A stretch of 64,000 nucleotides of DNA from NCBI RefSeq assembly GCF_000143965.1, contig NC_014365.1:647501-711500 (forward strand), read 5' to 3'. Made by a program: the position numbers and the translations under genes. Positions 16,172 through 21,854 of this stretch are shown piece by piece (positions within the stretch are counted from its first letter, which is position 1; each line of letters starts with the position of its first letter). Origin of the DNA: Desulfarculus baarsii DSM 2075 (lineage in GTDB: Bacteria; Desulfobacterota; Desulfarculia; Desulfarculales; Desulfarculaceae). The notes below the pieces were generated by a model. That model was not told the DNA's origin. It did no database searches and was given only the letters and a program-made list of their open reading frames with translations.

Positions 16172-17101
16172 ATGAGCGGCGCCGAGACTTCCATCTGGGT
16201 GACCGAGGTGATCACCGACTGGGATGTGTATCACCATGGCGTAAGCGAAGTGATCGCCCACGAAAAGACCAAGTACCAAGAGATGTACGTGGTTCACAGC
16301 CCCTCGTTCGGTCGGGCCTTGGTTTTGGACGGCAAGTGGCAGAGTTCGCAGGCCGACGAGTTTTTGTATCACGAGCCGCTGGTGCAGCCGGCAATGATCG
16401 CCCACGGCGCGCCCAAGAAGGTGCTGATCCTGGGCGGCGGCGAGGGCGCGACGATCCGCGAGACCCTGCGTTGGAAGAGCGTCGAGCGGGTGGTGATGGT
16501 CGACATCGACCAGCCGGTGGTGGAGGCCTGCCGGGAACACATGGAGGTCATGCACCAGGGCGCGTGGGATGATCCCCGCCTGGAGCTGGTCTTCGACGAC
16601 GCCTGGAAATATCTGGAAGACACCCGCGAGGCCTGGGACGTGATCATCAGCGACCTGACCGATCCCCTGGAGGAAGGGCCTTCGTTCAAGCTCTTCACCC
16701 GCGAGTTTTATGAGATGGCTCGCCAGACCCTGGCCCCCGGCGGCAAGATGGTCATCCAGGCCGGGCCGGTTTCGCCGGTGGAACTGGCCCCGCACGCCCG
16801 CATGGTCAAGACCCTGGCCGCGGTTTTTACCCACACGCGCTCGTATTGTTCGCACACGCCCAGCTATGGCCGGCCGTGGGGCTTCGTGCTGTGCTCGCAA
16901 GAGCCCCTGGACACGCGGCCCGAGCCCCAGGCCGTGGACGAGCTTTTGGGCCGCATGCTGCAAAGCGAACTGAAGCTCATCGACGGCCAGACGCTTTTGG
17001 GCATGCTGCAAACGCCCAAGCACATCCGCCAGGCCGTGGAGCGGACCGATGTGATCTACACCCTGGCCGCCCCCCCGCGCTTTGGCCAGGAGGGCCGCTA
17101 G
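16172..17101 (+). CDS. speE: Spermidine synthase (polyamine aminopropyltransferase)
   Basis: Transfers aminopropyl from decarboxylated S-adenosylmethionine to putrescine. The 309-residue protein has the N-terminal beta domain (TKYQEMYVVHSPSFGRALVLDG, QSSQADEFLYHEPL) and the Rossmann domain with the signature VLILGGGEGATIRETLRW, the acidic VVMVDIDQPVVE and the catalytic region VIISDLTDPLEEGPS, where D/E substitutions of the usual DSTDP are small. The chosen ATG at 16172 has GGAGATG upstream; the longer frame from 16100 overlaps a hairpin. No speD or adc gene is adjacent. Its stop shares a CTAG with the stop of the opposing Acs-like gene. Confidence 0.88.
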   Translation: MSGAETSIWVTEVITDWDVYHHGVSEVIAHEKTKYQEMYVVHSPSFGRALVLDGKWQSSQADEFLYHEPLVQPAMIAHGAPKKVLILGGGEGATIRETLRWKSVERVVMVDIDQPVVEACREHMEVMHQGAWDDPRLELVFDDAWKYLEDTREAWDVIISDLTDPLEEGPSFKLFTREFYEMARQTLAPGGKMVIQAGPVSPVELAPHARMVKTLAAVFTHTRSYCSHTPSYGRPWGFVLCSQEPLDTRPEPQAVDELLGRMLQSELKLIDGQTLLGMLQTPKHIRQAVERTDVIYTLAAPPRFGQEGR

Positions 17102-18816
17102 CGGCTTTTGAGGTTGCTGACGTCGCCCAGCGGCAGGCCCAGGTCCAGCGCGCGCAGCGCCCGCCTGATCAGCCTGCCCTGGGCGTTTCGGGGTAGTCTG
17201 GGCAGAAACTCCAGCCCGGCCACCGGCCCATCGGGGCTGATGGCCAGCGCAAGCATCTCCAGCAGGGACGCGCGCAGTTCGTCGTCGGGCTCTTGCCCCG
17301 GCGCGGCCACCACGAAGGCCTTCAGCGCCGGCTGGCCGTCGGGCAGGGCGCTGGCCACGGCCACGGCCTCGGCCACGCGGGGGTCGGCGGTCAGGGCTTG
17401 CTCGACCTCGAAGGGCCCGACCATGCGGCCCACGCCGCGGATCAGGTCGTCCTGACGGCCCTGCAGATAGATATAGCCGTCCTCGTCGTAGGCGGCCATG
17501 TCGCCGGTTTGCAGCCAGCGGCCGGCCCGGAAGCGCCGGAGGTAGGCCTCGTCGTCGTCGATGAAGCCGCGGGCCATGGCCGGCCAGGGCGCTTGCAGCG
17601 ACAGGTCGCCGATGGTCAGCAGATGGGCCGGCCGGCCCTCGCCGTCGAGCACCTTGACATCCAGGCCGGGCATGGGCCGGCCGCTGGAGCCCAGCTTCAG
17701 GTCCATCGAGGGGAAGTTGGCCACGGCGATCATGCCGGTCTCCACCGTCCACCAGTTTTGGTGGGGCGGCCGGCCGAAGTTGTTGCGCGTCCAGAAAAAA
17801 TCTTCCATCTCCAGGCGGTTGCCCACCGTGGCCAGATGCTCCAGGGCGGCGAACTGGCCCACTTCGCCTGGCCGATCGCCGGCGGCGCGCAGTCGGCGCA
17901 AAAACGGCGGCATGGTGTACCACACGCTCACCTTGTGGTGCCGCAGGGCCCCTCGCCAGCGTTCGGCCGAAAAGGGCCCGGTCAACAGCAGGCTGGCCGC
18001 CCCGCAGAGCCAGGCCCCCCACACGCCGTAGACGCTGAAGACCGTGCCCGAGGTGTGGCCGTCGACCAAAAGCAGCGAATCGGGCCGCAGATTGAGGGCC
18101 CAGCGGGCGCTGATCAGATAGCCCACCATCGACTCCACCGCGCCCCAGACCAGCCTGGGCGGGCCTTCGGGGTTTTCGGCGTGGACGATCTGCAGCATGT
18201 GATCGCGCTCGACCCAGGCCGGCTCCAGGTGGTCGGACATCTGGGGCAAAAGCTCCAGGGCGGCGTGTTCGCGGGCCAGGCGGCCCGGGGCCAGGCCGCG
18301 CAGGTAGACCATGGCGCAGCCCTCGGGCGCCAGCTCCCAGGGGAAATCGCCCACCCCGGCGGTGGTGACGACCACGTCGGGCCGCAGGCGCTGGATCAGG
18401 CTGCCGTAAACGGCCGTCGACAGCCCCGGCCGCAGGTGGCAATAAGCCGCGCCCAGGCGGGCGGCGGCCAACTGCACCCAGATCACATCGGGCCCCGGCG
18501 GCAGCAGGGTCAGCACCCGGCCGCCCAGGCCCAGGCCGACCTGGGCCAGCAAGTTGGCCCAGCGGCAACTGATGGCCCGCGCGTCCTCGAAGGAATAGGT
18601 GCGCACCATGATGCTGTCGTCCCAGACCAGGGCCCGCCGCCGGGCGTCGCGGGCGCAGACCGTCCAGCGGTCGACGGCCTCGTGGGCGATGTTCATGCGC
18701 CGGCCGCCGGCCCAGGTGAACAGGGCCTCGGCCTGATCCCAGGAAAAGCTCTCCCGCGCCTTTTGGTAGTCGTAAAGGTTGGAGGTTACGTCGCCGGCCT
18801 TTATCTTGGAGACCAT
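17098..18816 (-). CDS. Acetyl-CoA-synthetase-like protein with degenerate active site (catalytic Lys replaced by Arg)
   Basis: A 572-residue member of the AMP-forming acyl-CoA synthetase family, closest in motifs to Acs/medium-chain enzymes: WWTVETG for the WWQTETG motif, and the hinge region GDMAAYDEDGYIYLQGRQDD followed by GPFEVEQAL. Two essential elements are changed. The P-loop normally TSGSTGKPKG reads HAENPEGPPR. The invariant C-terminal lysine of PKTRSGKIMRR reads LPRNAQGRLIRR, so Arg548 stands at the catalytic position. Family knowledge predicts loss or strong impairment of adenylation. It starts 15 bp after an AcuC-like deacetylase gene and is probably co-transcribed with it. The frame is intact and long, so it is a conserved pseudoenzyme or altered enzyme rather than a decaying gene. 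Confidence 0.8.
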   Translation of the reverse strand: MVSKIKAGDVTSNLYDYQKARESFSWDQAEALFTWAGGRRMNIAHEAVDRWTVCARDARRRALVWDDSIMVRTYSFEDARAISCRWANLLAQVGLGLGGRVLTLLPPGPDVIWVQLAAARLGAAYCHLRPGLSTAVYGSLIQRLRPDVVVTTAGVGDFPWELAPEGCAMVYLRGLAPGRLAREHAALELLPQMSDHLEPAWVERDHMLQIVHAENPEGPPRLVWGAVESMVGYLISARWALNLRPDSLLLVDGHTSGTVFSVYGVWGAWLCGAASLLLTGPFSAERWRGALRHHKVSVWYTMPPFLRRLRAAGDRPGEVGQFAALEHLATVGNRLEMEDFFWTRNNFGRPPHQNWWTVETGMIAVANFPSMDLKLGSSGRPMPGLDVKVLDGEGRPAHLLTIGDLSLQAPWPAMARGFIDDDEAYLRRFRAGRWLQTGDMAAYDEDGYIYLQGRQDDLIRGVGRMVGPFEVEQALTADPRVAEAVAVASALPDGQPALKAFVVAAPGQEPDDELRASLLEMLALAISPDGPVAGLEFLPRLPRNAQGRLIRRALRALDLGLPLGDVSNLKSR

Positions 18817-18831
18817 CGCCGATCCTCGCCG

Positions 18832-19866
18832 TCAATCCAGCCACAGGCCGAAGCCGGCGTGGACCCGGCCGGCCCTGGCCAGCAGTTCGTCGGCTTTTTG
18901 GCTCTGGGCGCTCCAGACTGCTTGGCCGTGGCGTTGGTCTTGCAGGGCGGCCAAGACCTCGGCCACGCAGGCCGTGAGGGTGTCGGGGTCGTAGCCGCCC
19001 TCCAGGGCCAGCAGCAGGGGGATGTCGTTGTTGCGCGGGCCCAGGGTGGCCACCAATTGGGCCAGGCCGGCGTAGGAGGCCTCGGTTTGCAGCGTGGCTC
19101 CGATGGGATCGCGGAAATGGGCGTCGAAACCGCAGGCGACCATGATCATTTCGGGAGAAAAGCGCTCCACCAGTTGCTCCAGCACCACCCGGTAAAGGGT
19201 CATGGCGTCGTTGTCGCCCCATTTTGGCGGCAGGGGCAGATTGATGGTGTGCCCCGCGCCAGGCCCCACGCCCACCTCGCCCAGCTTGCCGGTGAAAGGA
19301 TAGGCGTTTGGCAGATGAGTGGAAAGATAAACCACTCTGTCGTCTGCGTAAAATAGATTCTGCAACGCGTTGCCGTGGTGGATGTCCCAGTCGACGATCA
19401 GGACGCGTCGCAGGCCGCGCCGCAGGGCGTGGCGGGCGGCCAGGCCCAGGTTGTTGAAGATGCAAAACCCGCCGGCCCGGTCGGCCAGGGCGTGGTGGCC
19501 CGGCGGCCGGCAGAGCACCAGGCAGGCCTGACATCGACCGGCCAGCAGGTCGTCGACGCCCAGCACGCAGCCGCCGGCGGCCAGCCAGGCGGCCAGGCAA
19601 CTGTCACGGCTGGCGATGGTGTCGGGAGCCAGGTGGGTCAGGCGTTGGCGGGCGGTGGCCAGGATGATGCGCACGTAGGCCGGCGTGTGCACGCGCTCCA
19701 GATCCTCCAGGGTGATGGGCCGGGCCTGTTTTTCGATGAAGCCGCCGGGGTGGTCCCAGTCGAGCATGCGATAAACCGCGCTAAGGCGGGCCGGGCTCTC
19801 GGGATGGCTCAGGCCGGTCTTGTGGCGCAGATAGCGGTCGTCGCGGACAATTTGCACCTGGAGCAT
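18832..19866 (-). CDS. Histone deacetylase family protein (AcuC-like)
   Basis: A zinc-dependent class I/II-type deacetylase of 344 residues. The catalytic His-His pair is in CRPPGHHALADRAGGF, the metal ligands in VLIVDWDIHHGNA, the third Asp in ACGFDAHFRDPIG, and the C-terminal LLALEGGYDPDTL loop is present, so the active site looks complete. Bacterial members include AcuC, which deacetylates the catalytic lysine of acetyl-CoA synthetase, and acetylpolyamine hydrolases. Both ideas fit locally: an Acs-like gene follows by 15 bp, and speE is close. ATG at 19866 is preferred over ATG at 19893, with GGATG upstream. Substrate assignment is inference. Confidence 0.85.
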   Translation of the reverse strand: MLQVQIVRDDRYLRHKTGLSHPESPARLSAVYRMLDWDHPGGFIEKQARPITLEDLERVHTPAYVRIILATARQRLTHLAPDTIASRDSCLAAWLAAGGCVLGVDDLLAGRCQACLVLCRPPGHHALADRAGGFCIFNNLGLAARHALRRGLRRVLIVDWDIHHGNALQNLFYADDRVVYLSTHLPNAYPFTGKLGEVGVGPGAGHTINLPLPPKWGDNDAMTLYRVVLEQLVERFSPEMIMVACGFDAHFRDPIGATLQTEASYAGLAQLVATLGPRNNDIPLLLALEGGYDPDTLTACVAEVLAALQDQRHGQAVWSAQSQKADELLARAGRVHAGFGLWLD

Positions 19867-20042: not shown

Positions 20043-21854
20043 GTGAACCCAACGGCCCCGGAGCAAAAACACCCCCCCACGCGGCCCGTCAACCGCCTCG
20101 TCGGCCTGCTGCGCCGCCAGACCGTGCGGCGCATTCTCGTCTCGGTGCTCATCGGCGTGGTGGCCGGCCTAGGGGCCATGGCCTTTTTCCTGTGCCTGGA
20201 GTGGGCCTGCTGGTTCGTGTTGGGCTATCTGGCCGGGGCCCAGATCCCCGGGCCCGATGGCGAACGCGTGGTGCACATGGCCGTGACCACGCCCTATCGG
20301 CCGTGGCTCTTGGCGCTTTTGCCGGTGCTGGGCGGCCTGGCTTCGGGGCTTCTGGTCAACGCCCTGGCCCCCGAGGCCGAAGGCGAGGGCACCGACGCCA
20401 TGATCGACGCCTTCCATAACAAAGGCGGCACCATCCGCGGGCGGGTGCCCTTCATCAAGTCGGCGGCCTCGATCATCACCCTGGCCAGCGGCGGCTCGGT
20501 GGGCCGCGAAGGGCCCATCGCCCAGATCGGCGCCGGTTTCGGTTCGTGGCTGGCCCAGGCGCTGAAAATTCCCGCCCACGAGCGACGCATCTACATGCTG
20601 GCCGGCTGCGCGGCCGGCCTGGGTTCGATCTTCCGCGCGCCGCTGGGCTCGGCCATCACCAGCATCGAGGTGCTCTACAGCGAGGATTTCGAGTCGGAGG
20701 CGATCATCCCCTGCGTCATCGCCTCGGTGATCGCCTATTGCATGTTCACGTTTTTCTTTGGTTTCGCGCCGGTGTTCGGCTCGCCGCACTTTGTCTTTCA
20801 CGACCCCCGCGAGCTGTTGGCCTACGCCGTTCTGGGCCTGATCTGCGCGCCCATCGGCATGGGCTACGTGTCCATGTTCAACCGCTCGCGTGAGTTCTTC
20901 CGGGGCCTGACCAACGTGCCCCGGCAATATCGGCCCATGCTGGGCGGGGTGGGCGTGGGCCTGGTGGCCCTGGCCGTGCCCGAGGCCATCGGCGGCGGCT
21001 ACGGCTACATGCAGTTGGCCATCTACGGCCAACTGGGCCTGGGCCTGATGTGCCTGGCCGCGGGGTTCAAGATGGTCACCACCAGCCTGACCATCGGCAG
21101 CGGCAGCTCGGGCGGCGTGTTCGGACCGACGCTATTCATCGGCGGGATGATCGGCGGGGTGGTGGGCCAGGTGGGCCACATGCTTTTCCCCGAGATCGTC
21201 CAGCAGCCGGGGGCCTACGTGCTGGTGGGCATGGCCGCCTTTTTCGCCAGCGCGGCCAAGGCGCCGGTGGGCTCGTTGATAATGGTCTCGGAGATGGCCG
21301 CCAGCTATCAGTTGCTGCCGCCGCTGATGATCGTCTCGATGATCGCCATCTTGTTCAACCGCGGTTCGAGCATTTACACCAAGCAGCTTTTGAACAAATT
21401 CCAGAGCCCGGCCCACGAGGCCGACCTGACCGTCAACGTCCTCGAGACCCTCACCGTGGCCGACGTCTTCGCGGCCGACCGGCCGGTGATCGGCCTGCGG
21501 CCCGACGAGAATTTCGCCCAACTGCGCCGGCATATCGCCGACAGTCACCAATCGTTGTTTCCCGTGCTGGACCAGGCCGGCGCGCTGATCGGCGTGTTGC
21601 CGGTGGCGGCCATCCGCAAGGTGCTTTTCGAGGATTCGCTGGCCCATCTGGTGGTGGTGGGCGAGTTGGCCGAACCGCCGACGGCCCTGGCCCTGGGCGA
21701 CGATCTATACTCCGCCCTGCTCAAATTCCTTGATTCGGGCCACGGCCAACTGCCCGTGACGGCCGACGGCCGGCTTTTGGGCCTGCTGGACCACGCCGAC
21801 GTCATCGCCGCCTATCATCAGGAGGTCAGCCGCCGCCGGCGCGCGGCCGCCTAG
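20043..21854 (+). CDS. ClC family chloride channel/antiporter with two CBS domains
   Basis: A 603-residue membrane protein. Signature ClC elements are SGGSVGREGPIAQIGAG, where the Glu is the gating glutamate, and IGSGSSGGVFGPTLFIGG. About 12-18 helices span residues 30-440. The C-terminal cytosolic part (about 460-595) carries two CBS units (TVADVFAADRPVIGL and ALGDDLYSALLKFLDSGHGQLPVT), which usually bind adenine nucleotides and regulate transport. The first selectivity loop is EGEGTDAMIDAFHNKGG instead of GSGIP, typical of the bacterial ClC-CBS subgroup. GTG start with weak ribosome site; an overlapping upstream promoter is visible. Anion specificity (Cl, NO3, F) cannot be read directly. 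Confidence 0.9.
   Translation: MNPTAPEQKHPPTRPVNRLVGLLRRQTVRRILVSVLIGVVAGLGAMAFFLCLEWACWFVLGYLAGAQIPGPDGERVVHMAVTTPYRPWLLALLPVLGGLASGLLVNALAPEAEGEGTDAMIDAFHNKGGTIRGRVPFIKSAASIITLASGGSVGREGPIAQIGAGFGSWLAQALKIPAHERRIYMLAGCAAGLGSIFRAPLGSAITSIEVLYSEDFESEAIIPCVIASVIAYCMFTFFFGFAPVFGSPHFVFHDPRELLAYAVLGLICAPIGMGYVSMFNRSREFFRGLTNVPRQYRPMLGGVGVGLVALAVPEAIGGGYGYMQLAIYGQLGLGLMCLAAGFKMVTTSLTIGSGSSGGVFGPTLFIGGMIGGVVGQVGHMLFPEIVQQPGAYVLVGMAAFFASAAKAPVGSLIMVSEMAASYQLLPPLMIVSMIAILFNRGSSIYTKQLLNKFQSPAHEADLTVNVLETLTVADVFAADRPVIGLRPDENFAQLRRHIADSHQSLFPVLDQAGALIGVLPVAAIRKVLFEDSLAHLVVVGELAEPPTALALGDDLYSALLKFLDSGHGQLPVTADGRLLGLLDHADVIAAYHQEVSRRRRAAA

Follow-up and report, generated by a model that had tools for sequence, protein, structure and literature searches.

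A degenerate AcsA homologue paired with a class II-type deacetylase in Desulfarculus baarsii, a possible remnant of an Acs acetylation-control operon

In a 64,000-nucleotide stretch of the Desulfarculus baarsii DSM 2075 genome (contig NC_014365.1, positions 647,501 to 711,500; hereafter the window), a gene for a class II-type zinc-dependent deacetylase is followed by a gene for a full-length homologue of the acetyl-CoA synthetase AcsA with degenerate catalytic motifs, here called AcsA'. Our comparison with related genomes suggests that AcsA' is a dead Acs copy kept for another job, likeliest that of regulating or guiding the deacetylase. We place at about one half the probability that the two genes are what remains of an operon controlling Acs acetylation, with AcsA' as the partner of the deacetylase. 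Acetyl-CoA synthetase is the classic example of an enzyme under reversible lysine acetylation, and a preliminary description of the window had read the two genes as an AcuC-like deacetylase paired with an Acs-like protein whose acetylatable lysine has become arginine.

Results

AcsA' keeps the fold of AcsA and has lost its P-loop and catalytic lysine

The preliminary description had placed two intact frames 15 bp apart on the minus strand, and our reanalysis bears this out (Table 1). AcsA' has its best NCBIfam match in the acetate--CoA ligase family PRK04319 (residues 4-570; 371 bits, with the cut-off at 729) and its best Protein Data Bank sequence match in Bacillus subtilis AcsA (9g79/9g7f), with which it shares length and fold. 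An AlphaFold2 (AF2) model of AcsA' adopted the AcsA fold with a predicted local distance difference test score (pLDDT) of 84, and its N-domain superimposed on 9g79 with a Z score of 53.6 at 1.7 Å over 447 residues; model confidence fell below 50 at P-loop residues 215-219 and in parts of the A8 loop (455-458 and 460-464). AcsA' thus has the fold and the full-length N- and C-domains of a functional AcsA, but it lacks the P-loop TSGSTGxPKG and the motif A10 lysine and scores under the NCBIfam equivalog cut-off. Alignment with the solved AcsA set TSGSTGTPKG against HAENPEGPPR, which agrees with the consensus at only one of seven checked positions, and SGKIMRR against QGRLIRR, in agreement with the degenerate P-loop and Arg548 noted earlier. 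The acetate-pocket role of WVTG is known from Salmonella Acs, and this motif is also replaced. With the P-loop, the acetate-pocket WVTG and the catalytic lysine all missing, the sequence strongly indicates that AcsA' has lost synthetase activity.

We also considered whether the A8 loop (SGxRVGPFE) had been lost in all 28 clade members, and dropped this idea: of the 28, 24 have another residue in place of Gly450 (Geobacillus numbering), the window protein and loci L049, L050 and L051 keep it, and a one-residue shift of the loop may account for the difference.

The lysine-to-arginine change is fixed in the clade and the gene is maintained

The A10 lysine is invariant in canonical AcsA (15/15) and present in 14 of the 16 clade members outside the window's group, the exceptions being L055 (Arg) and L095 (Val). 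By contrast, all 12 species of the window's clade, which form a single group with 100/100 support, carry arginine at this position in full-length open frames. Parsimony assigned four changes to the lysine state and six to the P-loop state. One locus, L047, combines arginine with a fully intact P-loop (TSGNTGPPKG), so the lysine-to-arginine change preceded P-loop erosion, which followed in several branches. The P-loop positions lost differ widely among the 12 species while the arginine is constant, which argues for selection holding the arginine. The motif A5 glutamate is lost in six of 11 relatives.

Orthologues that keep both the lysine and an intact P-loop, which the preliminary description had named as grounds for regarding the change as a local mutation, do exist (L052, L053, L054, L083, L084, L088, L092 and L094). 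Since all of these belong to outgroups, the change marks the whole clade and is not a local mutation. Between close pairs within the degenerate clade, the ratio of nonsynonymous to synonymous substitution rates (dN/dS) was 0.12-0.33 for AcsA' and 0.10-0.34 for the deacetylase, values that come from relatives, the window's species having no close relative in the set. By this measure purifying selection acts on both genes in close relatives. The AcsA' and deacetylase trees contain the same sub-clades, as co-inheritance predicts. Taken with the arginine fixed in all 12 species, these results uphold the earlier proposal that a full-length pseudo-synthetase has been maintained.

A further AcsA-like protein with a replaced lysine was observed at L107:4458-9659, in a delta-type metagenome-assembled genome. 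There, an intact acs, a class II-type deacetylase gene and a DUF3303 gene precede an AcsA-like gene whose product has threonine for the catalytic lysine and an intact P-loop; this seems to be a loss that arose separately, again next to a deacetylase gene.

AcsA' and the deacetylase occur together

Among the 60 nearest genomes, a clear AcsA' orthologue was found in 16 relatives (36-46% identity), each of which also carries a deacetylase orthologue, giving co-occurrence in 17/17. A single genome (G004) has the deacetylase without AcsA'. Two others (G020 and G011) have cut contigs or a split frame, and the fragments still agree with co-occurrence; in G011 the deacetylase is split into two overlapping frames (L049:1191-2116), by either an assembly frameshift or a broken gene.

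The two genes lie nose to tail, mostly with gaps of no more than 15 bp or overlaps of a few bases (1-9 bp or short overlaps in most species other than the window's), and gaps reach 80 bp or more in a few loci, with larger gaps in L053 (80 bp) and L041. When the named Thermodesulfobacteriota loci of the genome scan are counted, 27 AcsA-like loci can be assessed, and in 23 of them the deacetylase gene is the neighbour on the same strand. The remaining four are L084, L088, L093 and L095, of which L088 has acs and a GNAT acetyltransferase gene in place of the deacetylase. A comparison of deacetylase adjacency with catalytic-site loss over independent pairs yielded only three usable pairs and had no power.

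Two of these four loci have neighbours of their own. At L093:2607-4499, an acetyl-CoA hydrolase/transferase fused to a GNAT domain is encoded directly upstream of the AcsA-like gene. At L095:1940-2596, the nearest annotated gene encodes a CBS-CBS-ACT protein (the AcuB architecture), just upstream of the AcsA-like gene with valine for the catalytic lysine.

The deacetylase is class II-type

The deacetylase carries the motifs RPPGHH, DWDxHHGN, GFDA and LEGGY together with the catalytic His-His pair, the Asp-His-Asp zinc site and the tyrosine of a class II-type enzyme, and its catalytic residues are unchanged across 17 homologues. The same four motifs occur in bacterial class II-type deacylases (HdaH, cluster 1 of PMC11532494) and in the HDAC6 domains, and HDAC6, HDA15 and HdaH are among its best matches of solved structure; it differs from these enzymes in its linkage to Acs-family genes. 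Assignment to AcuC was rejected: the tree separates the deacetylase from Bacilli AcuC at 100/100, and the AcuC motifs GGMHHA, DxDAHHGDG and GGGY are not found. "AcuC-like", the earlier label, therefore fits as a presumed role and, judged by motifs and tree, is wrong as a family. A connection with Acs stays plausible all the same, since AcsA Lys549 is reported to be deacetylated by a further deacylase that does not belong to the AcuC cluster (PMC11532494).

The genome has an AcuC-family gene of its own at C1:1428300, which groups with AcuC and is ~41% identical to Bacilli AcuC. It also encodes a second class II-type deacetylase paralogue (L169:4728-6143; C1:2123117), 37% identical to that of the window.

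Outgroup operons point to an origin in Acs acetylation control

In outgroup Thermodesulfobacteriota, we found the gene order acs - GNAT - deacetylase - AcsA-like (L055, L053, L058/L171, L087, L091, L092 and L094). The acs product has 650-680 residues with ACAS_N and AMP-binding domains, and in the AcsA-like protein the lysine and P-loop are mostly intact. The window's locus lacks acs and the GNAT gene, its group keeping only the deacetylase and AcsA' there. By this comparison of gene order the pair appears to derive from an operon predicted to control Acs acetylation, in line with the connection to Acs acetylation first proposed. The operon GNAT has orthologues in G014 and the basal genomes and gave weaker matches in G019 and G010; no orthologue was found in the window's genome, which has about 20 other GNAT-family genes. 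Elsewhere that genome encodes two intact long Acs proteins (SGKIMRR and TSGSTGKPK), so AcsA' would be dispensable as an enzyme and possible substrates of the deacetylase remain.

In the literature searched, we found no description of an acs-GNAT-class II deacetylase operon in Thermodesulfobacteriota, which the present comparison brings to light. Nor did the top-ranked literature contain an acyl-CoA synthetase pseudoenzyme paired with a deacetylase, most subscription journals lying outside the coverage.

Comparison with the Bacillus acs/acu system

The Bacillus system comprises AcsA, the acetyltransferase AcuA, the CBS-ACT inhibitor AcuB and the deacetylase AcuC. In both systems an AMP-forming AcsA-fold protein, a GNAT (here in the outgroups) and a zinc deacetylase are clustered, with the A10 lysine as the switch and short overlaps between genes. 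However, the deacetylase here is class II-type and not AcuC, no AcuB gene stands beside the window pair, and this clade's AcsA partner seems to be inactive and to lack an acetylatable residue at the A10 site. The outgroup GNAT had no match in Bacilli loci at the threshold used.

Two Bacillus precedents bear on the pair. B. subtilis AcsA K549R is not acetylated and retains a stable complex with AcuA (PMC11255334), so a natural lysine-to-arginine change can preserve partner binding. AcuB, which is encoded with AcuC, binds and inhibits AcuC (PMC13039410), so a deacetylase may be bound and inhibited by a protein encoded next to it.

Discussion

In the model that we propose, the ancestral locus encoded four proteins: an intact Acs, a GNAT acetyltransferase, a lysine deacetylase of class II type and an AcsA-like paralogue. 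The window's lineage would then have lost the first two genes from this locus, and the AcsA-like protein would have become a pseudo-synthetase, its switch lysine fixed as an arginine that is non-acetylatable and still charged, with repeated P-loop erosion after that change. AcsA' may now be the partner of the active deacetylase. Its retained Acs fold would bind either that enzyme or the enzyme's Acs-type substrates, and AcsA' may thereby target, inhibit or metabolite-gate deacetylation, in much the way that AcuB acts on AcuC. Linkage, co-inheritance, operon origin and the K549R and AcuB precedents together give moderate support to a regulatory role. The more specific form of this model, in which a dedicated pseudo-Acs subunit, drawn from the ancestral substrate family through fixation of the switch lysine as arginine, binds and controls or targets a zinc deacetylase and replaces AcuB-type control, is held tentatively and falls somewhat short of even odds.

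Several observations weigh against the model of AcsA' as a deacetylase partner. Adjacency by itself could come from a shared ancestral operon, and the dN/dS values, as noted, come from relatives. Most of the clade lacks the GNAT, which therefore would not drive an acetylation cycle on AcsA' there. Motif decay is also uneven. The window protein retains Glu359, GD438-439 and the GRxDD hinge, and together with the intact P-loop of L047 this implies that some nucleotide binding or a partial reaction could persist. Finally, we looked in the window protein for a selective loss of active-site residues over other conserved AcsA residues and did not see one: 21/37 active-site motif residues are kept versus 56/108 of the others, which indicates that the overall divergence of the window's AcsA' has also been fast.

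The same retained GD and GRxDD motifs would also fit AcsA' as an enzyme of altered chemistry, performing only the second half-reaction, hydrolysing or binding acyl-adenylate or acyl-CoA, or ligating an unknown acid with Arg548 in the role of the lysine; the deacetylase would then be a metabolic neighbour that, for example, cleaves an amide product. Purifying selection, the conserved arginine and the existence of relatives with lysine and an intact P-loop are compatible with such an enzyme. Acs lacking the lysine (K609 mutants) can also retain the thioester half-reaction, which would favour it. Acetylated AcsA has likewise been argued to keep this half-reaction (PMC11255334). We nevertheless consider an altered enzyme unlikely, given that the window protein lacks the P-loop, WVTG and the lysine, that the A5 glutamate is gone as well in six relatives, and that no neighbouring pathway genes are conserved in the clade. 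If AcsA' were instead chiefly a present or former substrate of the deacetylase, the arginine would lock the deacetylated state, and the pair would persist through other acetylated lysines of AcsA' or its slow decay. Outside the clade, 14/16 relatives keep the lysine and for the most part also have the GNAT, in the operon or elsewhere in the genome, and arginine is fixed where the GNAT has gone from the locus. Both observations would fit this explanation, but L055 has arginine despite its GNAT, dN/dS speaks against slow decay, and other modified lysines on AcsA' are without support; we regard it as rather improbable.

The preliminary description had also taken the nearby speE gene as a hint of acetylpolyamine hydrolysis, which would make AcsA' incidental. 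In the window, speE is convergent with a 4 bp overlap, and the RPPGHH and EGGY motifs occur in bacterial polyamine deacetylases as well (PMC11532494). The best solved matches of the deacetylase belong to subfamilies other than acetylpolyamine amidohydrolase. The hint gains no support from synteny: speE is not beside the pair in other loci, whereas AcsA' is always beside the deacetylase in the 16 relatives. The Glu gatekeeper is absent too (DPIG in the window, DPLG/DPLS in relatives), although bacterial polyamine deacetylases also lack it. Polyamine deacetylation thus seems very improbable. Equally so is a decaying pseudogene without function, kept by chance: the branch to the window's AcsA' is fast, at 1.53 changes per site, but the open full-length frames in 12 species, dN/dS well below 1 in close pairs and the fixed Arg548 bring this explanation close to refuted for the clade.

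A clade-wide Acs homologue with a natural lysine-to-arginine change, kept next to a deacetylase, would be the natural counterpart of the laboratory K549R mutant, and would illustrate how an enzyme under regulation can itself become a regulator.

Layout of the locus

Positions within the window are collected in Table 1. The deacetylase frame can be extended to 20052 from an upstream TTG.

Table 1 Features of the deacetylase-AcsA' locus (window positions)
Feature	Position	Strand	Basis or remark
Class II-type zinc-dependent deacetylase, 344 residues	18832-19866	-	ATG at 19866; Pfam Hist_deacetyl, E 7e-80
Intergenic gap of 15 bp, deacetylase to AcsA'	18817-18831	-	GAGG Shine-Dalgarno-like stretch ahead of the AcsA' ATG
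AcsA-family pseudo-synthetase (AcsA'), predicted, 572 residues	17098-18816	-	Pfam AMP-binding, E 3e-30; AMP-binding_C, E 2e-7
Degenerate P-loop (motif A3), residues 212-221, HAENPEGPPR replacing TSGSTGKPKG	18154-18183	-	Alignment
Residues 257-260, GTVF at the acetate-pocket WVTG position of canonical AcsA	18037-18048	-	Alignment
Motif A5, residues 354-361, NWWTVETG, Glu present	17734-17757	-	Alignment
Motif A10, residues 546-552, QGRLIRR; Arg548 (17173-17175) replaces the acetylatable catalytic Lys	17161-17181	-	Alignment

A ClcA-type chloride channel gene (20043-21854) is divergent from the deacetylase gene. ClcA-type genes 61-68% identical to it lie near the deacetylase and AcsA' pair in the loci of eight relatives, and in some relatives PhoB/PhoR-type genes stand between the ClcA-type gene and the pair.

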